Source: Bacilli bacterium
Lineage (GTDB): Bacteria > Bacillota_I > Bacilli_A > RF39 > UBA660
Direction: 5' to 3'
Length of the DNA: 54,867 nucleotides
Assembly (NCBI GenBank): GCA_028691955.1
Contig: JAQUYH010000009.1
Coordinates: forward strand, 1-54,867
Shown here: piece after piece, positions 9,124 through 52,546 of the stretch
Layout: each line of letters opens with the position of its first letter
Position numbering within the stretch: position 1 is the first letter of the stretch
Program-made: the position numbers and the translations under genes
Notes under the pieces: generated by a model
Told to the model about the DNA's origin: nothing
The model's database searches: none
What the model saw: only the letters and a program-made list of their open reading frames with translations

Positions 9124-9660
9124 ATGGGGGATAATATTGAGACTCTTTTAAGAAGGAAAGGGCTTTTGACATGTTGGATTGAAGAAAGAACTAAGCTTGT
9201 TTTAAATGATAGTATTTCAGAAGTTGAACTTGATAAAATAAGAATAGAACTTTTGTCATTTGGAATGTGTTTGGATTTTATAAATCAAGAAATTTGTAAG
9301 ATTGATAGCGTTAAATGTAGTCACTTATTTGTTTTAGATGGCAGAAATAAAGGGCGAATTGAATGTTTGAAATGCGGTATTAGCAATGATGGGCTTAGTC
9401 ACCATGTTTTACCAATTGATAGTAGTCAAATTAAACAATTATTTAATGATATTAAAATTCATGAGCATTGTCTTAGGGTTGATGGTAAAGCTGAACTTAA
9501 TTTTGATTTGGTTTTTGCTATATATTGTAAACTTATTAGTAAATTTCCTGGAATTATTGATGATGATTTGCAACATTATATAGAAGCAGCTTATTATCAT
9601 AGTATGAATAATAAAGTGCCAGCTAGTAGAGAAAAAAGACTTGGTTTAGGTAAAAGATAA
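9124..9660 (+). CDS. Hypothetical protein with CxH...CxxC ribbon-like motif (paralog A)
   Basis: No family is recognised. The 178-residue soluble protein has a possible metal ribbon: Cys65-x-His67 and Cys81-x-x-Cys84 (CSHLF...CLKCG). The C-terminus holds an acidic DDDLQHYIEAAYYHS helix and ends REKRLGLGKR. The next gene shares all of these landmarks, so the two are paralogs. The start is uncertain: the strong AGGAGG site lies 13 bases from this ATG, while GGGGGA within the first codons could serve an in-frame ATT (codon 5). It has its own promoter after the RNase J terminator. A regulatory or adaptor role would be guesswork. Confidence 0.7.
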   Translation: MGDNIETLLRRKGLLTCWIEERTKLVLNDSISEVELDKIRIELLSFGMCLDFINQEICKIDSVKCSHLFVLDGRNKGRIECLKCGISNDGLSHHVLPIDSSQIKQLFNDIKIHEHCLRVDGKAELNFDLVFAIYCKLISKFPGIIDDDLQHYIEAAYYHSMNNKVPASREKRLGLGKR

Positions 9661-9698
9661 TAAGGGAATTTATTGCTTAAGTAGTAGTAGGGGGAATC

Positions 9699-10202
9699 AT
9701 GAGTAGTAAAAATGTTTTTTTATTAATATCTGCTTTATTTAATAAAGCACAAGAAAAACGTAGAAAAAGGAAAGAAGAAAAATTAGTTTCTTTATTAGAA
9801 TGTGATCATTTATGGCTTGTTGATGTTGATAAGTTTGCAACAATAGACAATGAAAAAAAATTTTGTGTTAAATGCGGTTTATATATTGATTATGGTCAAG
9901 GAATATGTGTTGATTGTCATGGAATAGTTAATTGTTTAGATGATATTTTTTTAAGTAAACTTAAGAGTGGAGTTGCCTTATCGAGAGTATATAATCAAAG
10001 AGTGAGCCTTGATTTATCAACTTGCTTTCATATAAGGGATAGAATATTAATGAAAAATCCTGATATTGATGATGATATATTAGTTAGCTATTTTTTGGCA
10101 GCGTGTCATAATATAGAAACTAGGGGAACTGAAACGGAAAGAAAAAATAGGGCAAAAAGATTGGGTATTGATCATAGACATTTAAAAATAAGCTGTAATT
10201 AA
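9699..10202 (+). CDS. Hypothetical protein with CxH...CxxC ribbon-like motif (paralog B)
   Basis: This 167-residue protein is a diverged paralog of the one before it. Shared landmarks are Cys35-x-His37-L and Cys56-x-x-Cys59-Gly, a C-terminal (F/N)P-x-I-x-DDD segment followed by an AA(Y/C) helix, and a terminal R-x-KRLG. It has an extra Cys70/Cys73 pair and a strongly basic segment (KRRKRKEEK, near 20-28) after a short hydrophobic start, which may contact nucleic acid or the membrane surface. A GGGGGA site precedes the ATG. It is probably co-transcribed with paralog A. Function unknown. Confidence 0.7.
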   Translation: MSSKNVFLLISALFNKAQEKRRKRKEEKLVSLLECDHLWLVDVDKFATIDNEKKFCVKCGLYIDYGQGICVDCHGIVNCLDDIFLSKLKSGVALSRVYNQRVSLDLSTCFHIRDRILMKNPDIDDDILVSYFLAACHNIETRGTETERKNRAKRLGIDHRHLKISCN

Positions 10203-14678: not shown

Positions 14679-14723
14679 TTTTTGTTTTGCTTTTTTTATG
14701 CTATAATATTTTTAAGAAGAGTG

Positions 14724-15968
14724 ATGGATATGGAATGGATTAAAAAGCATTGTAATTTTATTATTGTAATTTCAATTATAATTGTTATAGTTTCTTTTAT
14801 GCTGATTATATATTTTTATAAAAGAGGCAGCTTTACTCCGGAAGAAGAAGTAAAGGATAAAGGTTTTTACTATAACTTGATTGAAGAGGTTAATAGAGAA
14901 ACAGAAGAAAATGTTAATTATTTAATAAGCCCATTATCAGTTGGTAATGTTTTATCTGTTTTAAGAGATGGGGCTAGTGGTGTTACATACGATGAACTTA
15001 ATAATGCTTTAAAGAGTCAAACGTTTATTAAGAATATAAATGTTAATGATAAAATAAGTATAGCTAATGCTTTATTTATTAATAATGCTTTTAAAGATTT
15101 AATTAGTAATAGTTATATAGATAAAATAGAAAATAACTATAATAGTGATGCTATATTTGATGATATGCAAAACCCTGATGTGATAAACAATTGGGTTGAT
15201 GATAAAACTTATGGGATGATACCTAATTTAGTAGATGAAATATCAAATGATTTTGTTATGGGAATTGTTAATGCTATCGCACTTGATGTTAATTGGAAGG
15301 AATCTTTTAATTGTAATTTCACAAAAGATGAAGATTTTACTAAAGTTGATGGAAATAATATAGAAGTATCAATGATGTATGAACCTGATAGAGATGGTGA
15401 TTTATCTTATATTGAAAGTGATAAAGCAGTTGGAATAATTAAACCCTATGCTACTTATGATGGGGTTGATTTAGAATATGTTGCAATACTTCCTAATGAT
15501 AATGTGTTTGATTATGTAAACCAATTTGATGAGAATGAATTTAAAACTTTAATGGATAGTGAAGTGAGCTCTTCTAGCAGTATTCATATTGATTTATCTT
15601 TGCCAAAATATTCGTATGATTATAATATGGCTAAGTTTAAAACAGTTTTGTCTCATTTAGGTCTTAACAGTATGTTTGATGTTAATTTAGCTGACTTTAG
15701 TTTGATGACAGGTGGCGTTAGTACTTTGTTTGTTGAAGATGCTATTCATAAGACTAAAATAGAATTAAATGAGATGGGGACTAAAGCAGCAGCAGCAACT
15801 TATGTTAGTTTGGATTTAAAGACAATTGAATCTCCTGAATATTACAAAACAATTAGTGTTACTTTTAACAAACCTTTTGTATATTTAATTAAAGAAAAAG
15901 ATAGTAATGATATTATTTTCTTTGGTGTAGTATATGCTCCAGAAAGTGAAGATAATACTTGTAGTTAG
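14724..15968 (+). CDS. Membrane-anchored serpin (serine protease inhibitor)
   Basis: Serpins trap target proteases by inserting a cleaved reactive loop into a beta sheet. The protein has one N-terminal membrane helix (FIIVISIIIVIVSFMLIIYFY) and then an exported serpin domain. Shutter and signature segments are visible: NYLISPLSVGNVLSVLRDGASG, IVNAIALDVNWKESF, VEDAIHKTKIELNEMGTKAAAAT (the hinge of the reactive loop, about 345-365) and FNKPFVYLIKEK...FFGVVYAPE. The alanine-rich hinge fits an inhibitory serpin. An in-frame ATG at 14682 lies before a TATAAT (14702-14707), so the start is the ATG at 14724 after AAGAAGAG. It may protect the cell surface from host or neighbour proteases. Confidence 0.9.
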   Translation: MDMEWIKKHCNFIIVISIIIVIVSFMLIIYFYKRGSFTPEEEVKDKGFYYNLIEEVNRETEENVNYLISPLSVGNVLSVLRDGASGVTYDELNNALKSQTFIKNINVNDKISIANALFINNAFKDLISNSYIDKIENNYNSDAIFDDMQNPDVINNWVDDKTYGMIPNLVDEISNDFVMGIVNAIALDVNWKESFNCNFTKDEDFTKVDGNNIEVSMMYEPDRDGDLSYIESDKAVGIIKPYATYDGVDLEYVAILPNDNVFDYVNQFDENEFKTLMDSEVSSSSSIHIDLSLPKYSYDYNMAKFKTVLSHLGLNSMFDVNLADFSLMTGGVSTLFVEDAIHKTKIELNEMGTKAAAATYVSLDLKTIESPEYYKTISVTFNKPFVYLIKEKDSNDIIFFGVVYAPESEDNTCS

Positions 15969-20532: not shown

Positions 20533-21345
20533 ATGTATAAATTATATAATGAAAAAAGGTGTAAAACGGTTATACCTGGCGATGATAGTCGCTTTTTTCT
20601 TCAAAATTTTATTTTTCAAAAATATTTTTTTAAGTCTAAGAATAAGTTATCATGCTTAAGAGAGCTTTTAGCAGCTAAGATAGCAGATAAATTAGGTCTT
20701 GAGCACATAGAGTATAAGCTTGCTTGTTATAATGGAATTTATGGACTTCTTTCCAAAAGTTTTTTTAAACGAGGCTATGATTATTTATCGCTTAATGATC
20801 TTGTAATAAGTTATACAGATAGGCGCGATGATTTTGATACTAATGCTATTGAAATATATTTTATGACAATTCAAAAACAATTTTATCTTATTCCTAATTT
20901 TCAAAAGTATTTTGAAAAATTTAAAAATGATTTTCTTAATATGATTTTGTTTGATATGATTATTGGAAATTGGGATAGACATTTAAATAATGTTATAATT
21001 GAATATAATTCAAAAAAGTTTAGAATGATCCCTATTTTTGATAATGATCATGGATTTGAATCTTTTAATAAAACTGATATTCATACGTTAGATAGTAGTT
21101 TTTTCGAAAATGCAGAGGTCTTAAAGATGTTGATTAAAGCTTATCCAGATTTAAAGGAAAGAATGGCTTCTTTTTTAAAAATTGTAGATTGTGAATGTTT
21201 TTCTTCAATATTAAGGGCATTACTAAAGGAAAATATTACTTATTTTTCTAAAGATGATATATCAGGAATCTTTGATAGTTTTGTTAATGGTTATGTATCT
21301 ATAAAAGATTGTATAGATTCATATGAATGCAAAAGAAGCAAGTAA
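20533..21345 (+). CDS. HipA-fold kinase-like protein in the pheST operon
   Basis: The 270-residue protein resembles the C-terminal kinase part of HipA. CLRELLAAKIADKLGL (41-56) supplies the helix Glu; GNWDRHLNN (145-153) matches the catalytic N-x-D-x-H-x-x-N loop with Asp148; and IPIFDNDHGF (167-175) matches the metal-binding Asp segment. The HipA N-terminal domain is missing and no HipB-type repressor lies near. The ATG begins one base after the pheT stop with no clear separate promoter, so expression should depend on the Phe T-box and translational coupling. HipA relatives phosphorylate aminoacyl-tRNA synthetases, which makes PheRS a tempting but unproven target. A paralog follows. Confidence 0.65.
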   Translation: MYKLYNEKRCKTVIPGDDSRFFLQNFIFQKYFFKSKNKLSCLRELLAAKIADKLGLEHIEYKLACYNGIYGLLSKSFFKRGYDYLSLNDLVISYTDRRDDFDTNAIEIYFMTIQKQFYLIPNFQKYFEKFKNDFLNMILFDMIIGNWDRHLNNVIIEYNSKKFRMIPIFDNDHGFESFNKTDIHTLDSSFFENAEVLKMLIKAYPDLKERMASFLKIVDCECFSSILRALLKENITYFSKDDISGIFDSFVNGYVSIKDCIDSYECKRSK

Positions 21346-21365
21346 AGTTTTACTTGTTTTTTTTT
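21339..21365 (+). terminator. Terminator of the pheST operon
   Basis: An 8-bp stem CAAGTAAA (21339-21346)/TTTACTTG (21349-21356) around the stop codon is followed by a long T run. Confidence 0.8.
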
Positions 21366-21381
21366 GATGTTTTGTTATAAT
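21354..21381 (+). promoter_or_regulatory. Promoter of the second HipA-like gene
   Basis: A perfect -10 TATAAT (21376-21381) is preceded at 16 bases by a weak TTGTTT (21354-21359) embedded in the terminator T run. The start codon follows an AAAGGAG site. Confidence 0.5.
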
Positions 21382-21402
21382 AGTTTAATTAAAGGAGATT
21401 CT

Positions 21403-22200
21403 ATGAAATTAACAATGATTAATGATGCATATAGTTTTGAAAATAGAGTAACATTATGTGAAGATATGTTTGGGAAGAGATATATTATGAAAGCTTCAAG
21501 TATTGATGCAATGATACGTGAACTTTTAGCAGATTATATAGCTACATTACTAAATCTTAATCATGTTAATTATTTTAGATATAAAAAAGGATTACTTTCA
21601 CCTGATTTTAGAAAACCTAATACTGTTACTAAAAGTGGCAGAAAGTTTATTAGTGATATACCAGAAAATGTTATTGAAAGTAAAAGATATCCGGGAGTTT
21701 ATGATGTAGAATTAGCTTTAAATTTTAGATTTATTTATTATCAAAATTTTGAAAAACAGAAAAATGATATGTTATTCAATATAATTGATATGATTTTATT
21801 TGATCTTTTGATTGTTAATCCAGATCGTCATACTTTAAATTGGGATATATTTTTTGATTACGAACAATTTGGATTGATTCCTATATTTGATAATAATGCT
21901 GCATTTTCTGATTCTAATTGTTGTATATTTAATTTATTTGGAGGAATAGAAGAAAATGAAAATGTTATGCGCCAATTATTGGATAGTAAGTTTTCTGATT
22001 ATGCGCTTTTTAGAATGCAAGAATTCATGAATATTATAAATCCTGATACAATTGATGGCATCATACGTAATGTGTTAGTTAAAAATGGTTTGTTCTTTCA
22101 ATTGGGAATAGCAAATGAAATAAGTAAAAATTTTAAAAAAAATTATAATGATATATTTAGTGCTTTGTCTAAAAGTCAAAAGAGCTTTTTATTATCGTAG
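21403..22200 (+). CDS. HipA-fold kinase-like protein, paralog 2
   Basis: This 265-residue paralog of the preceding gene has the same order of kinase-like elements: KRYIMK (a candidate ATP-binding Lys30), RELLADYIATLLNL (Glu40), ILFDLLIVNPDRHTLNWD (N139-x-D141-x-H143...N146), and LIPIFDNNAAF (Asp163). It is separated from the pheT-linked copy by a terminator and has its own -10, so the two copies should be regulated differently. An in-frame ATG at 21364 lies before the -10 and is rejected; the ATG at 21403 follows AAAGGAG. No antitoxin gene adjoins it. The fold is inferred from motifs only. Confidence 0.6.
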   Translation: MKLTMINDAYSFENRVTLCEDMFGKRYIMKASSIDAMIRELLADYIATLLNLNHVNYFRYKKGLLSPDFRKPNTVTKSGRKFISDIPENVIESKRYPGVYDVELALNFRFIYYQNFEKQKNDMLFNIIDMILFDLLIVNPDRHTLNWDIFFDYEQFGLIPIFDNNAAFSDSNCCIFNLFGGIEENENVMRQLLDSKFSDYALFRMQEFMNIINPDTIDGIIRNVLVKNGLFFQLGIANEISKNFKKNYNDIFSALSKSQKSFLLS

Positions 22201-25937: not shown

Positions 25938-25985
25938 ATTTTGGTGTTTTATAGTATAATTAATATAATTGTGGATGGTGATATA

Positions 25986-28900
25986 GTGAGGGTAGATCAT
26001 AACTATAAAAATGATGTTAGAAAGATAGAAAAGTATAGAGCAAAGCTTATTTTTATGATCAAAAAAAATAAGTCTATTGATAGTATTAATGAGTGGTTAG
26101 TAGATAATTATTTTATTCTTTTAGAAAATAGAAAATGTATTATTGATGAATTAAGTTTTAATGAGCTTGAAAAGATTAAAAGAAAAAGAAAAAATTTCTT
26201 AATTCATTTGGTTGAAGAGATTTTAGAAAAAACTGGATATGCTTTTAATTCTAAAAAGATATATAGTGATATTTATAAGTTTCAAGAAAAAAATAATGAC
26301 TATTTTTCTTATTCTGAACTTAGCTATATTTTTGTTATGTTTAAAATTGTTTTAATTAAACAGCTTCGTGATCTTTCAATGCGTTTAAATGAAAGATTAG
26401 AAATAAAAATGAAAATGGTTAATAAGTATAATAAAATTATAAAGAATTCTAATAGAAGAAATTTCAAGTTATCTAATTATTTGAAAATAGATGAAGAACT
26501 ATTAAATAATGATTATTATGTTGAACAATTAAACCATTTACTTAGAAGACTTGGAAGTGTTTCTGAAGATGAGTTTATTAAATTAAATAAAATATTTGAT
26601 GAAAAAAATTTATCAATGAAAGATATGATTGACAATGCTCATAAGAAGTATACTGAAGATAGCATTTTAATGTCTAATATTTTTAATTTTTTAAAGGGTA
26701 TTATTAGAGTAGAGTTTCATAACTTTTTAACGGAAACTAGCCATGTTGAAAGAGTCCTTTGTAGTGAGAAAGTAAATATATATGAAAATATGTACGAAAA
26801 CAATAAAGTAGAATACAGAAGAAAAGTATTTAAGAATGCTAAAAGGAAAAAGGTTACACAGTACAAGTATGCTATGGATTTAGTTAAAAAGTCTGATGAG
26901 GAAAATAGACATATTGGTTTTAATTTATTTAAAAAGAAAAACATTAAATTAAGAACTTATATTTATATATTCTTTTGCTTGCTTTTTACAATAAGTGCTT
27001 CTTATGGTTTTTCACTACTTTTACATGGTTTTACTTTTTTCTTGTTATTAATACCAATGAGTATTGTTTCAATAGAAATTATAAATCAAGTGCTTATGCA
27101 TTTTATAAGACCTAATACTTTAAACAAAATTAAGTTTGAAGATAATATTATTCCTTTGGAATATTCTACAATGGTTATTATTCCAACTATTTTAAATAGT
27201 GAGGATAAAGTTAATAAAATGTTTGATCATTTGGAAGCTTATTATCTTTCTAATAAAAGTAAGAATTTGTATTTCACTTTATTGGGGGACTGTACTAGTG
27301 CGAAAGAAAAAGATATCCCCTTAGATGAAGTTATAGTTAAAGCTGGTCTTAAGAAAGTAAGAGAACTTAATCAAAAGTATAATGAGAGATTATTCTACTT
27401 CATTTATAGAAATAGATTTTATAATGAAGGAGAAGGAGAGTTTTTAGGGTTAGAAAGAAAAAGAGGCGCTATTAATCATTTTAATAAATTAATATTAGGA
27501 CAGTTAAGTGAGGAGGAAACTGAAAAGTATTTTAGATGTGAAACATTTAAAAGATTTAATAAGAAAATTAAATATGTTATTACTTTGGACTGTGATACTA
27601 AAATAGTTTTAAATACAGCTATTAAGATGGTTGGAACTATGGCTCATCCTATGAATCAAGCTGTTTTATCAAGTGATAAAAAGGTTGTTGTTAGTGGGTA
27701 TGGTATTATGCAACCAAGAATTAGTATTGATGTAGAAGTTACTAATAAGAGTCAATATTCGCAGTTATTTGCGGGTCTTGGAGGATTAGACATATACACA
27801 ACGGCATTTTTTGAATTATATCAGGATGTTTTTGGTGAAGCTAATTTTGCTGGTAAGGGTATCTATGATTTGGAAGTATTTAATACTGTTTTAGATGGAA
27901 GATTTCCTGATAATTTGATTTTAAGTCATGATTTACTTGAAGGAACGCATATAAGAGCAGGCCTTATTGATGATTTGGAGGTATTTGATGAATATCCTTC
28001 TAGTTATTTAAAAGATTCTGCTAGACATCATAGGTGGAATAGAGGGGATTGGCAGATAATATCTTGGTTATTTCCTAAGGTTCGTGATGCTAAAAATAAA
28101 AAGATTAAAAATGAAATTAATGCTTTATCTAAATGGAAGATTTTTGATAATTTAAGAAGAAGTACGGTTTATTTCTTTTTGATGTTATTTTTGTTTTTTG
28201 GAATTACTTTTGGTGGGGAATGTGCTGTATATTATTTTATAATTACTTTGTTTATTATATTTATACCATCATTTTTCTATCTTATTTCTAAATTGTTTTA
28301 TAGAAGTAAGAAGGATCCTTTCTTAAAATATTATTTGTTTTTATTCAAAGGTTTTATTGCAACTGTTGATAGGGCAGTAGTTACTTTTTCTGTTTTACCT
28401 TATGAAGTTTTTACTTATTTTGATAGTAGTGTGAAAGCATTATATAGAATGTTTGTAAGTCACAAAAAGCTTTTAAACTGGGTTACTGCTGAAGAGTTGG
28501 AAAGCAGAATGAATGATAAATTTATTACTTATATTAAAGCTTTTAAAATTAATTATATTTCAGCTCTTTTACTTGTAATACTATCAATTCTTTTTAATAA
28601 ACAAGCGTTACCAATAGCTATTTTAACAAGTTCTTTATGGATACTTGCTCCTATAATTATGCATAGAATGAGTAAAAGTATTGTTGATAACAAGCCTGAA
28701 CTTAATGGCTTTGAAAAAGAAAATGTTAAGGAATTGGCTTTAAAAACATGGAAATATTTTAGTGATAATTTAAATGAAAGCAATAATTATTTAGTGCCAG
28801 ATAATTATCAAATTAATAGATATGAAAATTTTGATTATAAAACGTCTCCTACTAATATTGGTTTTTCTTTAGTTAGTATAGTGAGTGCTTATGAGTTAGG

Positions 28901-31900
28901 ATTTATTGATGAGAAAAAAGCTGTTTTCTATATTAGTAATATAATTGATACGGTTGAGAGACTTGAAAAATGGAATGGGCATTTGTTTAACTGGTATAAT
29001 ATTTATGATTTAAAGAAATTACCTAATTATTTTGTATCTACTGTAGATAGTGGAAACTATACTTCAGCTTTGTTTGTTGTTAAAGCATTTTTAACTAAAT
29101 TAAAATATCCTACTTTGGTTAAAAAGATAAAAGGTTTGATTGATGAAGTTGATTTTTCTAAATTATATAACTCTGACTTGGATGTTTTTAGTATTGGTTA
29201 TGATTATACAGAAGATAAATTAATTCCTTATAATTATAATAATTTTGCTAGTGAATCTCGCTTAGCTTCTTTTGTTGCGATAGCTAAAGGTGATGTACCA
29301 TTTAAACATTGGTTTTGTTTAGATAAAACACTTACAAAGTATAAAAGGTATAAAGGTGTTGTTTCTTGGAATGGTACTGCTTTTGAATATTTTATGCCTT
29401 TAATATTTATGGATACTTTTAAGCATACGATATTAGATGAGAGTTATCATTTTGCATTGTTTGCTCAAAAAAGATTTATGAAAAAAATTGATAAACGTCT
29501 TCCTTGGGGAATTAGTGAGTCTGGTTATAATGAATTAGATGACTCACAAAGTTATAAGTATAAAGCTTTTGGTGTACCTTTTCTTAAGTTTAAAGAGGAA
29601 CAAAATAGTCCAATCGTTTTATCGCCATATAGTTCTATTATGGCTATTGGTCTTGATGAAACTTCTGTTTATCAAAATTTAGAAAAGTTTATTAAATTAG
29701 GTCTTTATAGTGAATATGGTTTTTATGAATCTTATGATAATGATGATAAAGCTGTAGTTAAAGCATATTATGCTCATCATCAGGGTATGATACTTTCTTC
29801 TATAGCTAATTATTTGAAGAAAAATGTTATAAGAAATTATTTTCACAATAACAAAGAAATTGATTCTGTTGAAATGCTTTTAAAAGAAAAAGTTCAACTT
29901 GATGTTTATATTAATTTAAAAGATACTAAGTATAGACGATATGACTATAATGTTGAGAATGAAGATTATGATATTAGAGAATTTAATGAAATTAATGAAG
30001 TCGATGAGTATTCGGTTTTAAGTAATGGCTTTTATTCTGTATTAATGGATGATAAAGGTAGAGGTATAAGCAAATATAAAAATCTTCAAATTAATAGGTA
30101 TAGAAATATTACTGATCAAGATTATGGTATGTTTTTATATATTAAAAATAAGAAGAATAATCATTTTTGGTCTAATACTTTTGCGCCAACTTATAAGGAA
30201 CCTGAAAAGTATAAAGTAATTTTTTCTGGCGATAAGGTTAAGTATATTAGAGATGATGAAGGTATAGCTACTACTACTGAAGTTGTTGTTCCAAGAAAAG
30301 ATAATGCTGAAGTTAGAAAGATAACTATTAAAAATAATAATAAAAAAAGTGTTATTTTAGAATTAACTTCTTATTTTGAAATGATTATGTGTAGAAATGA
30401 AGAAGATATTGCTCATAGAACTTTTAATGCTTTAAGTATTACTAGTGAAGTAGAGAATGATTCTTTAATATTTAAAAGAAAATCTAGAACTAAAGATAAT
30501 ACTAATTATTTTATTATTAATAAAATGTTTATCGATAAAAGTAGTGTTAAAACTTATTTCGAAAATGATAGAACTAGATTTATTGGAAGAAATAATAGTA
30601 TTTTAAGGCCTGATGCACTAACAAAAAACTATAAGTTTTCAGAGAGTGTTATTCCTTCAGTTGATCCTATTTCAAGTATTAGAAAAACAGTTACTTTAGA
30701 GCCTTCTAAGAGTATAGAGTTATATTTGATATGTGGCTTTGGTAAGTCAAAAATACAGGTTTTGGATATTGTTAATTCTTATGATTCTAAAGAGAAAATA
30801 GAAAACATGTTTAATGATACGGCTGTTTACAATCATATGATTGATAGTTATTCTAATATTACTTTGGATCAAAAGAGAATATATAATAAAGTATTAAAGT
30901 ATATTTATAGTAAGAATTTTAATAAAGTTAATTTCTATAATGATTTAAGTAAAATAGATAATTTGGATAAGAAAACACTTTGGAAGTATGGTATTTCTGG
31001 TAATTTACCAATAGTACTAGTAGAGGTTTATGATTCATCGGATTTATATTTAATTGCTGAACTTTTAAAAATGTTTGAGTTTTTTAAAACCAAAACAATA
31101 TATATAGATGTTGTTATTTTAAATAATCAAACTAGTGAAGATATGACAATTGTTAAATATATTAATAAGTTTATTTACAGAATTAATCATTTAAATTATT
31201 TTGAAAATACTTTAGGTAATATTTATAATATTGCCAAAAGAGATTTAAGTACTCTAGAAGAAGAGAAGATTAAATTATTTTCTTTGGTTAGTTTAACTTC
31301 TAAATATTTAGGGTCATTTGAAGATCAAATTGATAGTTCTTTTGATTTTGTAACTTATGATGATTTTAGAAATTTTGAATATATTAAAAATATTAGAAAT
31401 GATTTTACTAAAAAATTAGATTTTGATAATAGTTTTGGTGGTTTTACTAATGATGGTAAGGAATATTTAATTAAAAATGTTTCTACTCCTATGCCTTGGA
31501 TTAATGTACTAGCTGGTAATCACTTTGGTAGTATAGTAAGTGCTGGAGCGGGTGGATTTACTTATGTTAATAATAGTAATATGTTTAAGTTTAGCTCTTG
31601 GAGTAATGATATAACAAGAGATAACATTAGTGAAAAGATTATTATTTCAGGTAAAGTATTTGTGCCATCTATTGTTAAACATGGCTTTGGTTATACAGAA
31701 ATGTTTGCTGAAACAAAAGACTATAAAATATGTATTACTAATTTTGTTGGTTTGAACAGTAAAAAGAAATACTTTAAAATTGATATTAAAAATAAAACGG
31801 ATTATAAAAAAGAATTAGATATTGATTTATTGGTTAAGATGGTTTTAGGTAATAATGAAGAATATACTAGTAAATATATAATGGGTGACTTTGATAAGGA

Positions 31901-33635
31901 TAGAAATATATTTGTTATTCAAAATAAAGCAAGTGATGTATATTCAGAAATTTTAACTTATATGACATCTAGTTTAGATATTGAAAGATATCAAAGTGAT
32001 TTATATTATAAAACGATAGGCGTTTCATTTGAGCTTAATAAGTTAGAGTCTAAGAAATTCTCTTTTACAATGGGTGTTTTAAATGATGATGAAAAGAGTA
32101 TTGATGAAGAGTATAGAGAAATTACTAATTTCTGGGATGATAAGCTTGGTTCTATTTTAGTTGATACTCCTGATAAAAGCTTTAATTATATGATTAATGG
32201 TTGGTCTCTTTATCAAGTATATTCATCTAGAATCATGGCTAAAGCTGCCTTTTATCAAACGGGTGGAGCAATTGGTTTTAGAGATCAATTACAAGATATG
32301 ATGGGTATTATATATAATGATCCTAATGCGGTTAGAAATCAGATTATTGAACATGCTAAACATCAATTTTTAGATGGATCTGTTCTACACTGGTGGCATG
32401 AAGATGTTATGTTTGGTAGTAGAACGACTTTCTCAGATGATTATTTATGGCTTATTTATGTTACTAATGAATATATTAGAATAACAGGTGATAATAGTAT
32501 ATTAAAAGAAAATGCTTGCTTTGTTAAAGGAGAAGAGTTAGGTGGACGTAGTGAGATGGGTTTAACTTATTCTTACATTAATGAAGAAAAGACTATATAT
32601 GAGCACATGAAGTTATGTGTTTCAAGAGCCTTAAATAGATTTGGTCAACATAATTTACCTTTAATGGGATGTGGTGACTGGAATGATGGTATGAGCCATG
32701 TTGGAAGAGGCGGAAAAGGTGAAAGTGTTTTTGTAGGTTTCTTCTTATATGATATTCTTCAAAAGATGAGTGATATTTCTACTTCTTTAAATGATAAGGA
32801 GTTTGCTGTAACTTGCAACAATAAGGCGGTTTCATTAAAGAATGATCTGAATAATTATGCATGGGATGGAGATTGGTATTTAAGGGCTTTCTATGACAAT
32901 GGAGACTCTATTGGATCTAGAAATAATATGGAATGTAATATTGATTTACTTAGTCAAACTTGGAGTATTTTATCTGATGTAGCTCCAACTGATAGAAAGA
33001 AGAAAGTCTTAGAAGAGGTTTCTAATAAGTTAGTTGATAATGAGAATAAGATTTTGAAGTTATTAACGCCTCCTTTTGAAAATTCTATTAATTATCCAGG
33101 TTATATTAAAGATTATATTCCAGGAACTCGTGAGAATGGTGGACAATATACTCATGCTAGTTTGTGGTATATCCTCTCTTTATTAAAAGAGCATGACACG
33201 GATAAAGCTTATGAATATTATAGTTGGATTAATCCAATTAACAGAACTAAAACTTTTGAAGATGTATTAAAGTATAAGGTTGAGCCTTATGCGATTGTAG
33301 CTGACATTTATTCTAATCCTGATCTAGTAGGTAGAGGTGGATGGAGTTGGTATACTGGTTCTGCTTCTTGGTTTTATAAGATTGGTATTGAAGAAATACT
33401 TGGATTTAAAAAAGAAGGTAATAAGTTAAAAATTGTACCTAATATTTGTAGTAAATGGAGTAAATATTCTATTAAATATAAATATGAATCTTCTGTTTAT
33501 GAAATATTTGTTATTAATGGTGTAAGTAGTGGTAAAGTAGAAATGGTTTTAGATGGTAAGGCTATTAGTGATGAATTTATTACTTTAAAAGATGATGGAT
33601 TGGTTCATAAATTAGAAGTTAAGATCAAAGGATAG
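25986..33635 (+). CDS. Giant cyclic beta-glucan synthase-like protein (GT84 + glycoamylase-like + GH94)
   Basis: A multidomain protein of 2549 residues in the NdvB/ChvB style. Those enzymes build beta-1,2-glucan from UDP-glucose, cyclise it and trim it. In order: a helical N-terminal region (1-320); membrane helices (about 325-380); a glycosyltransferase domain with LDCDTK (DxD near 535) and HHRWNRGDW (near 680); more helices (about 725-780 and 857-893); a glycoamylase-like domain with LPWGISESGYNELDDSQ (near 1171) and YYAHHQGMIL (near 1259); then beta-rich regions and a GH94 phosphorylase domain with GGAIGFRDQLQD and GCGDWNDGM, catalytic Asp near 2234. The start is GTG at 25986 after GGTGAT; a TATAAT -10 (25955-25960) rules out the ATG at 25941. 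Confidence 0.88.
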   Translation: MRVDHNYKNDVRKIEKYRAKLIFMIKKNKSIDSINEWLVDNYFILLENRKCIIDELSFNELEKIKRKRKNFLIHLVEEILEKTGYAFNSKKIYSDIYKFQEKNNDYFSYSELSYIFVMFKIVLIKQLRDLSMRLNERLEIKMKMVNKYNKIIKNSNRRNFKLSNYLKIDEELLNNDYYVEQLNHLLRRLGSVSEDEFIKLNKIFDEKNLSMKDMIDNAHKKYTEDSILMSNIFNFLKGIIRVEFHNFLTETSHVERVLCSEKVNIYENMYENNKVEYRRKVFKNAKRKKVTQYKYAMDLVKKSDEENRHIGFNLFKKKNIKLRTYIYIFFCLLFTISASYGFSLLLHGFTFFLLLIPMSIVSIEIINQVLMHFIRPNTLNKIKFEDNIIPLEYSTMVIIPTILNSEDKVNKMFDHLEAYYLSNKSKNLYFTLLGDCTSAKEKDIPLDEVIVKAGLKKVRELNQKYNERLFYFIYRNRFYNEGEGEFLGLERKRGAINHFNKLILGQLSEEETEKYFRCETFKRFNKKIKYVITLDCDTKIVLNTAIKMVGTMAHPMNQAVLSSDKKVVVSGYGIMQPRISIDVEVTNKSQYSQLFAGLGGLDIYTTAFFELYQDVFGEANFAGKGIYDLEVFNTVLDGRFPDNLILSHDLLEGTHIRAGLIDDLEVFDEYPSSYLKDSARHHRWNRGDWQIISWLFPKVRDAKNKKIKNEINALSKWKIFDNLRRSTVYFFLMLFLFFGITFGGECAVYYFIITLFIIFIPSFFYLISKLFYRSKKDPFLKYYLFLFKGFIATVDRAVVTFSVLPYEVFTYFDSSVKALYRMFVSHKKLLNWVTAEELESRMNDKFITYIKAFKINYISALLLVILSILFNKQALPIAILTSSLWILAPIIMHRMSKSIVDNKPELNGFEKENVKELALKTWKYFSDNLNESNNYLVPDNYQINRYENFDYKTSPTNIGFSLVSIVSAYELGFIDEKKAVFYISNIIDTVERLEKWNGHLFNWYNIYDLKKLPNYFVSTVDSGNYTSALFVVKAFLTKLKYPTLVKKIKGLIDEVDFSKLYNSDLDVFSIGYDYTEDKLIPYNYNNFASESRLASFVAIAKGDVPFKHWFCLDKTLTKYKRYKGVVSWNGTAFEYFMPLIFMDTFKHTILDESYHFALFAQKRFMKKIDKRLPWGISESGYNELDDSQSYKYKAFGVPFLKFKEEQNSPIVLSPYSSIMAIGLDETSVYQNLEKFIKLGLYSEYGFYESYDNDDKAVVKAYYAHHQGMILSSIANYLKKNVIRNYFHNNKEIDSVEMLLKEKVQLDVYINLKDTKYRRYDYNVENEDYDIREFNEINEVDEYSVLSNGFYSVLMDDKGRGISKYKNLQINRYRNITDQDYGMFLYIKNKKNNHFWSNTFAPTYKEPEKYKVIFSGDKVKYIRDDEGIATTTEVVVPRKDNAEVRKITIKNNNKKSVILELTSYFEMIMCRNEEDIAHRTFNALSITSEVENDSLIFKRKSRTKDNTNYFIINKMFIDKSSVKTYFENDRTRFIGRNNSILRPDALTKNYKFSESVIPSVDPISSIRKTVTLEPSKSIELYLICGFGKSKIQVLDIVNSYDSKEKIENMFNDTAVYNHMIDSYSNITLDQKRIYNKVLKYIYSKNFNKVNFYNDLSKIDNLDKKTLWKYGISGNLPIVLVEVYDSSDLYLIAELLKMFEFFKTKTIYIDVVILNNQTSEDMTIVKYINKFIYRINHLNYFENTLGNIYNIAKRDLSTLEEEKIKLFSLVSLTSKYLGSFEDQIDSSFDFVTYDDFRNFEYIKNIRNDFTKKLDFDNSFGGFTNDGKEYLIKNVSTPMPWINVLAGNHFGSIVSAGAGGFTYVNNSNMFKFSSWSNDITRDNISEKIIISGKVFVPSIVKHGFGYTEMFAETKDYKICITNFVGLNSKKKYFKIDIKNKTDYKKELDIDLLVKMVLGNNEEYTSKYIMGDFDKDRNIFVIQNKASDVYSEILTYMTSSLDIERYQSDLYYKTIGVSFELNKLESKKFSFTMGVLNDDEKSIDEEYREITNFWDDKLGSILVDTPDKSFNYMINGWSLYQVYSSRIMAKAAFYQTGGAIGFRDQLQDMMGIIYNDPNAVRNQIIEHAKHQFLDGSVLHWWHEDVMFGSRTTFSDDYLWLIYVTNEYIRITGDNSILKENACFVKGEELGGRSEMGLTYSYINEEKTIYEHMKLCVSRALNRFGQHNLPLMGCGDWNDGMSHVGRGGKGESVFVGFFLYDILQKMSDISTSLNDKEFAVTCNNKAVSLKNDLNNYAWDGDWYLRAFYDNGDSIGSRNNMECNIDLLSQTWSILSDVAPTDRKKKVLEEVSNKLVDNENKILKLLTPPFENSINYPGYIKDYIPGTRENGGQYTHASLWYILSLLKEHDTDKAYEYYSWINPINRTKTFEDVLKYKVEPYAIVADIYSNPDLVGRGGWSWYTGSASWFYKIGIEEILGFKKEGNKLKIVPNICSKWSKYSIKYKYESSVYEIFVINGVSSGKVEMVLDGKAISDEFITLKDDGLVHKLEVKIKG

Positions 33636-33654
33636 TGATGAACTATTCTTTTTT
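33629..33654 (+). terminator. Terminator after the glucan synthase gene
   Basis: An 8-bp stem AGGATAGT (33629-33636)/ACTATTCT (33642-33649), one G-U pair, 5-base loop, then T residues. The stop codon is within the stem. Confidence 0.7.
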
Positions 33655-33656
33655 CG

Positions 33657-33685
33657 TTGACTTTTAATTTGATAAAATATATAAT
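33657..33685 (+). promoter_or_regulatory. Promoter of the repeat-protein cluster
   Basis: TTGACT (33657-33662), a 17-base spacer and TATAAT (33680-33685) follow the terminator by two bases. The start codon at 33707 has AAAAAAGGAG before it. Confidence 0.8.
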
Positions 33686-33706
33686 AGCGGTAAAAAAGGA
33701 GAATAT

Positions 33707-34516
33707 ATGGGAAGAAGAGAAGAAAAACTTTATTTAACGCCTTTAGAAATTTATCGTTTAGTTAAAGAAACTGATGCTTCTGCACGTTTACATCCTGAAA
33801 ACTCGATAGTTAGCGATTTAGAAAGCAGAGTAAGAGGATTTGATGAAACGATTGATATTAATATTTTACCTTCAATCTTTAGAATTGTTGCTTTGAGACT
33901 TAATGGTTTATTGCTTAGTAAATTAAAAAGTGTGAATGATGATGAAATTAAAGCAGCATTAGAACAAAATGGTTTAGCAATTTATTATGTAGAAAAACCA
34001 ACAGTTGAAATGCAAATAATGGCCGTTACACAAAATCCTTTGGCAATTCTAGCTATTAAGAATCCTTGCGAAAGGGCTATTGAAGTAGCTGTTGCTACAT
34101 ATGGCGTTCTGATTAAAACAATTAGTAATCCTGCTAATCCAGCTATAAGAATAGCTATTGATAATATGGCAGTTAGGAGTATTACAAAATATTTTCCTAA
34201 TTATGACAAAGACAGTGAAGATTTTTGTGAATATGCTGACCGCAATCTTGGTAAACAAATATTAGAAAAATATGCACTAATTCAAACCGTGGCGTTAAAA
34301 ACGGATACGAAACCTTTAGTTTCTTCGGAATTAACTCAAATGGTTGAAAATTATAATGATGTTTATAATGTATATGTTGGTATTGCTACCGCTTATGTTT
34401 TAGATAACTCACAAAATACTGAATATGATACAGAGTTAGCTTTTTTAAGAAATAGATATTATAGTACTTTAGGTATAACACCAGAAGAAGAACAAAAAAG
34501 ATTTGAAAAAAAATAG
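33707..34516 (+). CDS. DUF4116-like repeat protein, paralog 1
   Basis: First of four tandem paralogs. The 269-residue soluble protein has the shared core near residues 78-130: an NGLAIYYVEKPT-x-EMQ block followed by AV-x-QNPLAI-x-x-IKNPCE. A weaker upstream copy (RIVALRLNGLLLSKLKSV, about 59-76) suggests two or more repeats of one helical unit, reminiscent of DUF4116 repeats (A-x-K-Q-N-G...). The C-terminus ends in RNRYYSTLGITPEEEQKRFEKK, also shared. No signal or membrane helix. It probably shares a transcript with paralog 2, whose start lies 8 bases after this stop. Function unknown. Confidence 0.65.
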   Translation: MGRREEKLYLTPLEIYRLVKETDASARLHPENSIVSDLESRVRGFDETIDINILPSIFRIVALRLNGLLLSKLKSVNDDEIKAALEQNGLAIYYVEKPTVEMQIMAVTQNPLAILAIKNPCERAIEVAVATYGVLIKTISNPANPAIRIAIDNMAVRSITKYFPNYDKDSEDFCEYADRNLGKQILEKYALIQTVALKTDTKPLVSSELTQMVENYNDVYNVYVGIATAYVLDNSQNTEYDTELAFLRNRYYSTLGITPEEEQKRFEKK

Positions 34517-34524
34517 GGGGATTT

Positions 34525-35052
34525 ATGGATAAAGTTTCTAATGGTATTGAAAAAGAATTTGCTCCAGGAGTAGCAGATGAGGAAATTATTGAATCATTAA
34601 AAGAAAATGGTTTGCGTATTTATTATGTAGAAAAACCAACAGAAGAAATGCAGAGAATAGCTGTTAGACAAAATCCATTGGCTATAATAGGCATTAAGCA
34701 TCCTTGTGAAGAAGTCTTTAAAATTGCTTTTAAAGCTTTAGGATATTTGGTTTTTATGTTTCCAGAATTAGAAGAAAATTTAAAAAATATAGCTATAGAA
34801 AGTATTTTGGAATCTAAAATAGATGAGGAATTTAGTGAAGAAGGATTAAGACTTACTGTTGATGAAGTGGATTGTAGAATTAGGAAGTCTCGCCTTAGAA
34901 TTAATGGTGATTTAATAGGTAGAGTTTTATTTAATCAACCCATTAATGAAGATCTTGATAAATTAGAAAACCTAAAGAAAGCTTTTTATAGAACTTTAGG
35001 AATAACAGAAGAGGATTATCAAAAGGAAATGCATTTGAGAAACAATGCTTAA
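34525..35052 (+). CDS. DUF4116-like repeat protein, paralog 2
   Basis: 175 residues. The conserved core starts earlier (about 20-70: DEEIIESLKENGLRIYYVEKPTEEMQ, then AVRQNPLAIIGIKHPCEE), so this copy lacks the N-terminal extension of paralogs 1 and 3. The C-terminal helix KKAFYRTLGITEEDYQKE matches the others. AGGGGGA precedes the ATG. It is followed by a terminator and a new promoter, so paralog 3 is separately transcribed. Function unknown. Confidence 0.65.
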   Translation: MDKVSNGIEKEFAPGVADEEIIESLKENGLRIYYVEKPTEEMQRIAVRQNPLAIIGIKHPCEEVFKIAFKALGYLVFMFPELEENLKNIAIESILESKIDEEFSEEGLRLTVDEVDCRIRKSRLRINGDLIGRVLFNQPINEDLDKLENLKKAFYRTLGITEEDYQKEMHLRNNA

Positions 35053-35076
35053 GCACATAATATGAAGTGATATATT

Positions 35077-35112
35077 AAAAGTAGACAGGAAAAAAGAACT
35101 GTTTACTTTTTT
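35077..35112 (+). terminator. Terminator after paralog 2
   Basis: A 12-bp stem AAAAGTAGACAG (35077-35088)/CTGTTTACTTTT (35099-35110), one G-U pair, with a 10-base A-rich loop, ending in T residues. Confidence 0.75.
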
Positions 35113-35113
35113 A

Positions 35114-35142
35114 TTGACTTTATTTGCTTTAGTATATATAAT
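35114..35142 (+). promoter_or_regulatory. Promoter of paralog 3
   Basis: TTGACT (35114-35119), 17 bases, TATAAT (35137-35142), just after the terminator. The -35 is identical to that of the paralog 1 promoter, so the two units may have been copied with their control regions. Confidence 0.75.
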
Positions 35143-35166
35143 AACTAGCAAAAAGGGGGAAATATT

Positions 35167-35811
35167 ATGAAAAAAAATGTAACTCTTACAACGCAAGAAC
35201 TTTTGAGTGTTCTTTTTGCTCATAAAAAAGATTCTAGTATTGTAGAGGTTATAAAAGATCCAAAGCGAATAGAGAGTGTTCAAAATCCTTGTGCGATTTT
35301 AAAAAAATTAGCGTTACAACAGGATGGATTATTGTTAGGAAGCATCAATGGTGGTGTGACTGATGAAGACATAGATATAGCTTTAACACAAAATGGATTA
35401 GCTATTTATTATGTAGAAAAGCCAACGGATGAAATGCAAGTAAAAGCTGTTAAACAAAATGTTTTAGCGATTTTTGGAATTAAAAATCCGTGTGATAAAG
35501 CTATTACAGCAGTTGTTAATGTATGTGGCTATTTAATTTTTTGTTATAAAGATGCTGGTGATGAGGCTAAAGTGTTAGCGGCGCAGAGCTTAGCAAAAGC
35601 GAAAATGTTTGAAGATTTTGAAAATTCAGATGGAGATTATTATATTTTTACTAATGAGTCTTTTTCAAAGTATTTGTCTTATTTTATGGACTTAGTTTAT
35701 AGTGGTAATCCAACAATTGATGAAACACTTGAAATTTTTGATAAAAGATCAGCTTTTTGTGAAGCTATTGGCATTGATCCTATAACGGATGAAAAAGTAA
35801 AAAATAAGTAA
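35167..35811 (+). CDS. DUF4116-like repeat protein, paralog 3
   Basis: 214 residues. Two adjacent units are clear: NPCAILKKLALQQDGLLLGSING, then DEDIDIALTQNGLAIYYVEKPTDEMQ with AVKQNVLAIFGIKNPCDKA. The C-terminus (RSAFCEAIGIDPITDEK) matches the family tail. AAAAGGGGGAA precedes the ATG. The broken paralog 4 starts 9 bases after this stop and would be read from the same transcript. Function unknown. Confidence 0.65.
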   Translation: MKKNVTLTTQELLSVLFAHKKDSSIVEVIKDPKRIESVQNPCAILKKLALQQDGLLLGSINGGVTDEDIDIALTQNGLAIYYVEKPTDEMQVKAVKQNVLAIFGIKNPCDKAITAVVNVCGYLIFCYKDAGDEAKVLAAQSLAKAKMFEDFENSDGDYYIFTNESFSKYLSYFMDLVYSGNPTIDETLEIFDKRSAFCEAIGIDPITDEKVKNK

Positions 35812-35820
35812 GGAGAATGT

Positions 35821-36419
35821 ATGGCAGCTACTGTTACAGATTATTTAAACTGTATAGATATTTAGCAATTTACAAGAATGCTTGGTGGGAATGTTGTTAT
35901 TTATGAAGAAGGAAATCCAGTCGGATTTTATCCATTATCAACTGATAATTCAATAAAATTGTCATTGAAACAAAATGGATTACTTATTTATTTTATAGAA
36001 AAGCCAACAGAAGAAATGCAAATTATAGCGGTTAGACAAAACCCTTTAGCAATTTTATTAATTAATAATCCTATAGAAGAAGCCAAAAGAATAGCTGTTT
36101 CTATTTGTGGGTTATTAATTTATAGCTTATCTGATTTAGATGATTTTACTAGAGAAATAGCTATTGAAAATATGGCAGAATGGAAGCTTGGAATAATTCT
36201 GTTGCAAGTAAAAGATATAATGTTAGTAATACTAGTAATTATTTGTTTTTTAAATATAATGAAGTTATAGGTGGCGTTAGAGAAAGAGTTTTATCTAAAG
36301 CTCCCAATGCTTTAGATAAAGTTCAATTTGAAGAAATGATTAAAAGAGTTTGCCTATTGTTAGGTATTACTATGGAAGATTATAAATTTAAAAATAAAGT
36401 AATGTTTTTACAAAAATAG
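35821..36419 (+). pseudogene. DUF4116-like repeat protein, paralog 4, disrupted
   Basis: The reading frame opens at the ATG at 35821 (AAGGAG upstream) but hits TAG at 35863-35865 after 14 codons. The same frame continues with an intact core (SLKQNGLLIYFIEKPTEEMQIIAVRQNPLAILLINNP) up to about 36180. There the family C-terminal part is found in a different frame, ending RVCLLLGITMEDYK at 36419. An early nonsense codon plus a frameshift mark a recently decayed copy, since the core is still well preserved. A restart at 35878 could yield a truncated product. Confidence 0.8.
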
Positions 36420-36447
36420 ACATATATGAATAAATATGCCTATTTTT
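36413..36447 (+). terminator. Terminator of the repeat-protein cluster
   Basis: AAAATAG-a-CATAT pairs with ATATG-c-CTATTTT (36413-36425 with 36434-36446), one mismatch, followed by T residues. Confidence 0.7.
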
Positions 36448-36448
36448 A

Positions 36449-36478
36449 TTTACAATTATATTCAAAATCTGTTATACT
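36449..36478 (+). promoter_or_regulatory. Probable promoter of the capsule locus
   Basis: TTTACA (36449-36454) and TATACT (36473-36478) with an 18-base spacer lie directly after the terminator and before the first gene of the polysaccharide locus. Confidence 0.6.
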
Positions 36479-36500
36479 TAATAAGGAAATGGTGAAGGTA

Positions 36501-37118
36501 ATGAAGAATAATTTTGATAGATATATTTTACTTTTAATAATTGCTTTACTATTGTTTTTTTTAGGTGATTATGTTTTAAAGACTTTTAAATCAGAAAATG
36601 CTATAGCTCAAAATACGGAAGTAAAAGAAACTATTACTAATTATGGATATTCTTTAAGTAGTAATGATACAAATATATATAGTGATTATTTTAGTGAATT
36701 AAAAAATTTATTAAATGAAAATAATTTTAATGAAGAAGAGTATGCTGAATTAGTTGCCAAATTATTTGTTATTGATTTTTATACTTTAGATAATAAAATG
36801 AATAATAGTGATGTAGGTGGTTTAGAGTTTGTTTATTCAGATATTGTTTCTAATTTTAAACAAAAAGCAGAAGATACAATATATAAATACATTGAAAGTA
36901 ATATATATGGCAAAAGAGAACAAGAATTACCAATTGTAACTGATGTTAGTGTTGAAAGCATTAAAAATGTTATTTATAATTATGATGGCTTAACTGATAA
37001 GAATGCTTACGAAGTAGAAGTTAGTATTAGTTATTATGAAGATTTAGGCTATGATACAAGTCTTACTTTGTATTTTGTACATGAGGACAATAAATTAAGT
37101 TTAGTCGAAATGGGGTAG
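36501..37118 (+). CDS. Hypothetical exported protein with one membrane anchor
   Basis: A protein of 205 residues with one N-terminal helix (YILLLIIALLLFFLGDYVL) and an outward-facing acidic domain with a predicted alpha/beta C-terminal part (YEVEVSISYYEDLGYDTSLTLYFVHEDNKLSLVEMG), recalling small DUF-type lid or NTF2-like domains. No family is recognised. An earlier in-frame ATG at 36426 precedes the -10, so the start is the ATG at 36501, with GGTG 6 bases upstream. The capsule glycosyltransferase gene follows after 4 bases, so it belongs to that operon and may assist polymer export, but this is inference. Confidence 0.6.
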   Translation: MKNNFDRYILLLIIALLLFFLGDYVLKTFKSENAIAQNTEVKETITNYGYSLSSNDTNIYSDYFSELKNLLNENNFNEEEYAELVAKLFVIDFYTLDNKMNNSDVGGLEFVYSDIVSNFKQKAEDTIYKYIESNIYGKREQELPIVTDVSVESIKNVIYNYDGLTDKNAYEVEVSISYYEDLGYDTSLTLYFVHEDNKLSLVEMG

Positions 37119-51101: not shown

Positions 51102-51185
51102 TCATAACTATAAACTAATTGATAAAAAAATTAGAAGATGTGATATAATTTAATTGTATATAATTATTAAAGGATGTGTGTATAT

Positions 51186-51881
51186 ATGTATGACTCAAGG
51201 TATGAAGGGAAGTCTTTAGATTATCTTCAACGAGCTAAATCATCTATTCAAAAACAAATTGAACAATTAAGAATAGAAGAGGAAAAGTTAAGAAATTTAA
51301 GTCAAGTAACACATAGAAGAACAAGCGAACAAAATGTTTATGAAAAAAGAGTGAATAATAACAAAAAAGTAATGAAAGAAACAATATTAAAAATTGGTGC
51401 GAGAACTGTTATATTATCTTTTGTTTTCTTTTTCGCTGGTAGCATACTTATTACTAATGTTGTACCACTATTGATTGGTTCTGTAGCTGCTGGATTAGGA
51501 ATATCCGTTCCTTTATCTTTAGGTGAATCTATTTGGAAAATGGGTAGTTATGATAGAAAAAATAATAGGAGATTGCAAAATAATAGCAATACAGATTATT
51601 TGGCAATTAGTAGTGAAATTAATAAATTAAGTCTTGAATTAAGAGAAATTGATAGACAGATTAGACATATAAATCCTGTAGATTATAACAAAAGTCAACC
51701 AAGACAGCAGGTTGTAGTGACATATGAAGATGCACCTAAAAAACAAAGATGTAGTGAAATGCCTGGCTTAACGGTATACCAATCAGACCTATATGGGGGA
51801 AATATGGCTCTTTATAATTCACCTCCTAAGCAAATTAGGCAAGGATATAGCAATTCTAATAATGGTCATCATAGAATATAA
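51186..51881 (+). CDS. Hypothetical membrane protein with coiled coils (architecture pair, member 1)
   Basis: A protein of 231 residues with three parts: an N-terminal charged coiled coil (about 8-65, DYLQRAKSSIQKQIEQLRIEEEKLRN), two central hydrophobic helices (about 72-112), a second coiled coil (ISSEINKLSLELREIDRQIRHI), and a Gln/Ser/Asn/Gly-rich tail. The next gene has the same plan. The ATG at 51186 follows AAAGGAT; an ATG at 51174 overlaps that site. No family is recognised. The soluble arms and tails could recruit partners to the membrane, but nothing in the sequence shows which. Confidence 0.65.
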   Translation: MYDSRYEGKSLDYLQRAKSSIQKQIEQLRIEEEKLRNLSQVTHRRTSEQNVYEKRVNNNKKVMKETILKIGARTVILSFVFFFAGSILITNVVPLLIGSVAAGLGISVPLSLGESIWKMGSYDRKNNRRLQNNSNTDYLAISSEINKLSLELREIDRQIRHINPVDYNKSQPRQQVVVTYEDAPKKQRCSEMPGLTVYQSDLYGGNMALYNSPPKQIRQGYSNSNNGHHRI

Positions 51882-51907
51882 TAATAAAATAAAGGAAAGT
51901 GATATTT

Positions 51908-52546
51908 TTGAAAAATAATAATTTGGAATATATGCAATTATTAAACAAGCAAATAGAAATATCAAGAAGAATTACTTTTTTAAAAGAAAAACTTGGTACT
52001 GATAAATATCAGATAAATAAAAAAGATGATTTTTTTAAAACGGGAATAAAATATTCTACAATATCTTTGATTGAACAGACAATTTTAGTGGCTACTATTA
52101 TATTAGTAGGAGCTACTATTGTTGAAATTGGGGCTTTTGCTTTGTCAAATTGGGCATCATCTATATTAACAGAAATTGGGATTATTTCAGGTGGTGCTTC
52201 TGTTATTGTAGGTCCGACAGCTTTTTATATAAAAAAAATAAGGGAAGAAAAGCATAAAATAAAGAAATATAAATTAGATGACGACCTTTATCAAAAAAAA
52301 GTCTACGAAACGGAATTAACTGATTTGGAAAAAAAATTAAAAAGAATTAACTTGATGATTCAAGTACATCAATCATCAGCAATAATAAATAGTAGGGAAA
52401 AAGAAGTTACTCCAGAATTTGATTATACCATTGTTGGTGGTGAGACTGGTAAAATTGATGTTTTGCCAAGAGAAGATGATATGCAAGCAGGAATGCAACC
52501 AGGTGATCCATATGATCCACATAATTTTGGAGGAAGAAGCAGATAA
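51908..52546 (+). CDS. Hypothetical membrane protein with coiled coils (architecture pair, member 2)
   Basis: 212 residues in the same plan as its neighbour: coiled coil (YMQLLNKQIEISRRITFLKEKLG), two hydrophobic helices (about 50-105: ILVATIILVGATIVEIGAFAL and IISGGASVIVGPTAFYI), a long charged coil (KKIREEKHKIKKYKLDDDLYQKKVYETELTDLEKKLKRINLM), and a Gly/Pro/Asp-rich tail. I choose the TTG at 51908, which follows AAAGGAAAG at a spacing like that of RNase J; a GTG at 51899 is too close to that site. Its stop lies inside the left 16-base repeat flanking the toxin-antitoxin module. Confidence 0.6.
   Translation: MKNNNLEYMQLLNKQIEISRRITFLKEKLGTDKYQINKKDDFFKTGIKYSTISLIEQTILVATIILVGATIVEIGAFALSNWASSILTEIGIISGGASVIVGPTAFYIKKIREEKHKIKKYKLDDDLYQKKVYETELTDLEKKLKRINLMIQVHQSSAIINSREKEVTPEFDYTIVGGETGKIDVLPREDDMQAGMQPGDPYDPHNFGGRSR

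Follow-up and report, generated by a model that had tools for sequence, protein, structure and literature searches.

DUF4116 (PF13475) repeats span bacteria, jumbo phages and giant viruses and have no known function; contact-based modelling in the literature gave DUF4116 an alpha-solenoid fold (PMC8078820). In the literature that we searched DUF4116 is named, but no DUF4116 protein with an assigned function was found. Repeat-profile matches were found at 31 places in the 440-kb genome of the jumbo phage Salicola phage SCTP-2 (MF360958.1, L094), many of them in clusters of small genes, and at 6 places in Agrobacterium phage Atu_ph07. One Bacilli genome (L123) contains two long tandem DUF4116 genes (58% identical); together with the clusters in the two phages, this makes tandem sets of DUF4116-like genes a recurring pattern. 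DUF4116-like proteins are also found in ordinary chromosomal contexts. DUF4116 arrays behind an N-terminal WCTA-motif region unnamed by Pfam were observed in two Bacilli genomes (L043, 5259-7058; L044, 7104-9185) and on a phage contig (L012, 7122-8324), and a 166-aa DUF4116-like gene lies right behind a gene that looks by eye like a J-domain-protein gene (L124, 1768-3115).

We analysed a 54,867-nt stretch of the genome of an uncultured gut Bacilli member (the window), which contains a cluster of four paralogs at 33707-36419, all on the same strand (+), with copies 1-3 intact and copy 4 broken (Table 1). The cluster consists of small, distant DUF4116-like members of an already known kind of repeat protein. 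The copies have in common with DUF4116 the 22-residue register, the profile similarity and the alpha-solenoid fold (predicted for the copies), whereas the DUF4116 relatives that we saw are mostly longer arrays, and the window copies have 4-5 units, a C-terminal bundle of their own and an IYYVEKPT motif. In other Bacilli, the long DUF4116 proteins (L046, L038 and L123) carry the same repeat as the window copies in many more units and are not of their subfamily. SCTP-2 and Atu_ph07 encode numerous small DUF4116-like proteins whose repeats are similar and whose genes often lie close together in clusters; the proteins are phage-borne and ~27-38% identical to the window copies (tblastn).

Table 1. 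Features of the paralog cluster (window coordinates).
Feature	Position	Strand	Description
Copy 1 control region	33625..33706	+	terminator-like hairpin, sigma-70 promoter, ribosome-binding site
Copy 1	33707..34516	+	ORF, 269 aa; DUF4116-like solenoid, N-terminal extension and C-terminal helical bundle
Copy 2	34525..35052	+	ORF, 175 aa; ~4 repeats, then C-terminal bundle
Copy 3 control region	35071..35166	+	terminator-like hairpin, promoter, ribosome-binding site; resembles that of copy 1
Copy 3	35167..35811	+	ORF, 214 aa; five 22-residue repeats (~residues 39-153), C-terminal bundle
Copy 4 (pseudogene)	35821..36419	+	TAG at codon 15, one frameshift near 36180-36190

The gene upstream of the cluster (25941-33635) encodes a 2564-aa GH94-type glycan enzyme (Pfam GH94 domains), and downstream lies a widely kept membrane-protein gene (36426-37118) followed by polysaccharide genes. 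No partner gene was found to co-occur with the cluster.

The first-pass annotation, made from the sequence alone, had described four adjacent genes with a common block, and the block is, by sequence comparison, shared far beyond chance: the copies match each other by BLASTP with E-values of 1e-23 to 1e-27, and the cores of the other copies are 46-49% identical to that of copy 3, with 27 invariant columns. The block (the IY-Y/F-V/I-EKPT-x-EMQ region) turned out to be two units of a 22-residue repeat, of which each protein contains 4-5. The repeat character proposed earlier was borne out, as a lag of 22 gave the best self-similarity in each copy (autocorrelation, lags 10-44), with the lag-22 score matched by 4, 0, 0 and 0 of 2000 shuffles for copies 1-4, respectively. 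Conservation is highest in repeat 3, with 75% identity between pairs and 15 invariant positions out of 22; in repeat 5 the pairwise identity is down to 25%. The N-termini have one extra repeat in common and are otherwise unrelated. The C-terminal helix, which had been described as common to the family, is clearly shared between copies 1 and 2 (0/1000 shuffles) and between copies 2 and 4 (1/1000 shuffles), and only weakly between copy 3 and the others.

A relation to DUF4116 had been suggested tentatively. The Pfam scan gave no match for copies 1-3 and, for copy 4, a match to PF13475 of 16.3 bits (curated cut-off: 24.9 bits). Using hhalign against bona fide DUF4116 arrays, the copies reached an E-value of 1e-7 (probability 94%), as compared to a best E-value of 0.0096 among 40 column-shuffled controls, and the repeat register of DUF4116, a 22-residue period, is present in all four copies and eight relatives. 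Relatives with clean 22-residue DUF4116 arrays occur in the same bacterial family, and those that were scanned exceed the Pfam cut-off. Profile comparison thus upholds the suggestion, and points to a kinship that is real but distant.

AlphaFold2 predicted copy 3 with a mean pLDDT of 85.4 (mostly >90 in the repeats) and a pTM of 0.76, using a shallow alignment of 22 rows composed of repeat windows; two models out of the five had low scores (61.7 and 54.4), and our confidence in the prediction is therefore moderate. In the copy 3 model, helices of ~10 and ~6 residues alternate at 22-residue spacing and are followed by longer C-terminal helices, and copy 1 was predicted with the same layout (76.3). 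With moderate confidence, the predicted fold of copies 1 and 3 is an alpha-solenoid with a C-terminal helical bundle, in line with the earlier expectation that modelling would return a repeat structure. A fold search of viral models matched mostly DUF4116 proteins and some annotated as F-box, none with an E-value below 0.001, and nothing significant was found among solved structures (PDB), either by sequence or by fold.

The promoter of copy 1 (TTGACT, 17 nt, TATAAT) is located at 33657-33685 and that of copy 3 at 35114-35142. Across the 1.04 Mb of the genome, the exact pattern TTGACTTT-N15-TATAATA is present just twice, once ahead of copy 1 and once ahead of copy 3. Among 435 pairings of upstream regions from the window, the 80 bp ahead of these two copies, from terminator to ribosome-binding site, gave the best match, with an alignment score that was reached by 0/1000 shuffles. 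The unique promoter pair and the 80-bp match support the idea, already raised in the first-pass annotation from the near-identical promoters right after terminators, that gene and control region were copied together. Copy 2 starts 8 nt downstream of copy 1, and no promoter of its own was seen. Duplication of a two-gene unit is unsupported, as a tree of the four genes lacks resolution and pairs copies 2 and 3.

Copy 4 has a start at 35821 with a strong Shine-Dalgarno sequence ahead of it, a TAG at 35863-35865, an otherwise well-kept repeat core (35878-36190), and a frameshift after which the other frame (36180-36419) runs into the family's C-terminal motif. The early TAG, the frameshift and the well-kept core had been read from the sequence before. 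Reassignment of TAG to sense is unlikely, as intact genes here end in TAG (e.g. copy 1). Copy 4 is 46-56% identical to the intact copies, which are 41-47% identical among themselves, and its decay is young, given that its similarity to them equals theirs to each other. Translation of copy 4 from an internal ATG at 35878, which lacks a Shine-Dalgarno sequence of its own, might still yield 130 aa that include the repeat core. Because the assembly is a draft (26 contigs), the lesions might conceivably stem from an assembly error.

All four copies in the genome are at the cluster and nothing comparable was found elsewhere. The sampled congener (n = 1) has no copy, so that the refuting case named earlier, close relatives with one conserved copy and no expansion, does not apply. 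The core profile matched 10 of 291 genomes of the bacterial family, including the source genome, with the other nine matching weakly. Searches for closer relatives returned none in GTDB genome contigs and one phage protein in IMG/VR, and only distant relatives were found in ~1,700 whole genomes (the core profile was run on part of these). The genome contigs that best match a neighbouring gene belong to rabbit-gut and goat-gut MAGs that carry the label Bacilli (rabbit was taken from 'Lapin' in the bin names), which suggests the host.

We consider that the cluster is probably (roughly 55%) an accessory set of tandem paralogs that are old, have similar promoters and code for small DUF4116-like alpha-solenoid binding scaffolds in the cytoplasm, one copy being lost. 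The repeat period, the predicted fold, the DUF4116 kinship, the shared control block, the lesions and the patchy occurrence are observed, and from there we infer the cytoplasmic location, the binding role and the partner; the binding role is suggested by the solenoid fold, with no enzyme family matching the copies and no strong or clear transmembrane stretch in them. Each protein would consist of 4-5 divergent DUF4116-like two-helix repeats of 22 residues and a C-terminal helical bundle. Two similar strong promoters would drive expression, one of copy 1 and then copy 2, the other of copy 3 and then the remains of copy 4. The conserved central repeats (IY-Y/F-V/I-EKPT-x-EMQ) would hold a partner common to the copies, and the variable ends would set specificity. 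Alternatively, the genes could be cargo of a phage or mobile element, e.g. one that adjusts host proteins or counteracts defence in the course of infection, which we regard as possible and rather unlikely: PHROG 5925 matches all four copies (E-values of 6e-13 to 2e-9), the two jumbo phages contain the many matching places given above, and in the congener, which has no copy, the same downstream flank is kept with other genes upstream of it, but neither an integrase nor a phage structural gene could be recognised among the flanking genes (translations read by eye), the phage homologs are just ~27-43% identical (tblastn), and DUF4116-like proteins occur in ordinary chromosomal contexts as well. 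None of the four copies matched the PADLOC anti-phage defence models. It is improbable that they represent a new subfamily of small phage-derived DUF4116-like scaffolds, serving as adaptors with a common core and exchangeable ends in a reduced-genome gut bacterium.

The first-pass annotation had read the locus as a local expansion under diversifying selection. On this reading, the copies would turn over in step with a changing partner. The variable N- and C-termini, the number of copies and the fresh break in copy 4 would fit, but pairwise dN/dS is ~0.3-0.7 (dN 0.34-0.59, dS 0.66-1.3; a simple Nei-Gojobori count over the alignable part, without the variable N-termini, with dS rough because of the AT-rich composition), and conservation is highest in the central repeat. 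With ratios below 1, there is no sign of such selection over the part that can be aligned, and we hold this explanation to be very doubtful. Nor is the expansion recent: the copies are old (41-56% identity in pairwise local alignments), and this divergence rules out a recent duplication. Neutral accessory genes in decay, with no important function, are an equally doubtful account; the loss of copy 4 and the absence of the genes from the congener agree with it, but the three frames have stayed intact at 41-47% identity, with dN/dS below 1 and consensus promoters kept. Being short and clearly conserved in the middle, the copies lend themselves to solving a first structure and to a search for partners.

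Local duplication seems common in the window, which also contains two adjacent HipA/CtkA-type kinase-like genes (by eye), apparent paralogs in tandem (20533-21345 and 21364-22200), and two more adjacent pairs of look-alike small proteins (9124-10202 and 51174-52546). A 428-aa protein encoded at 14682-15968 looks by eye like a bacterial serpin.
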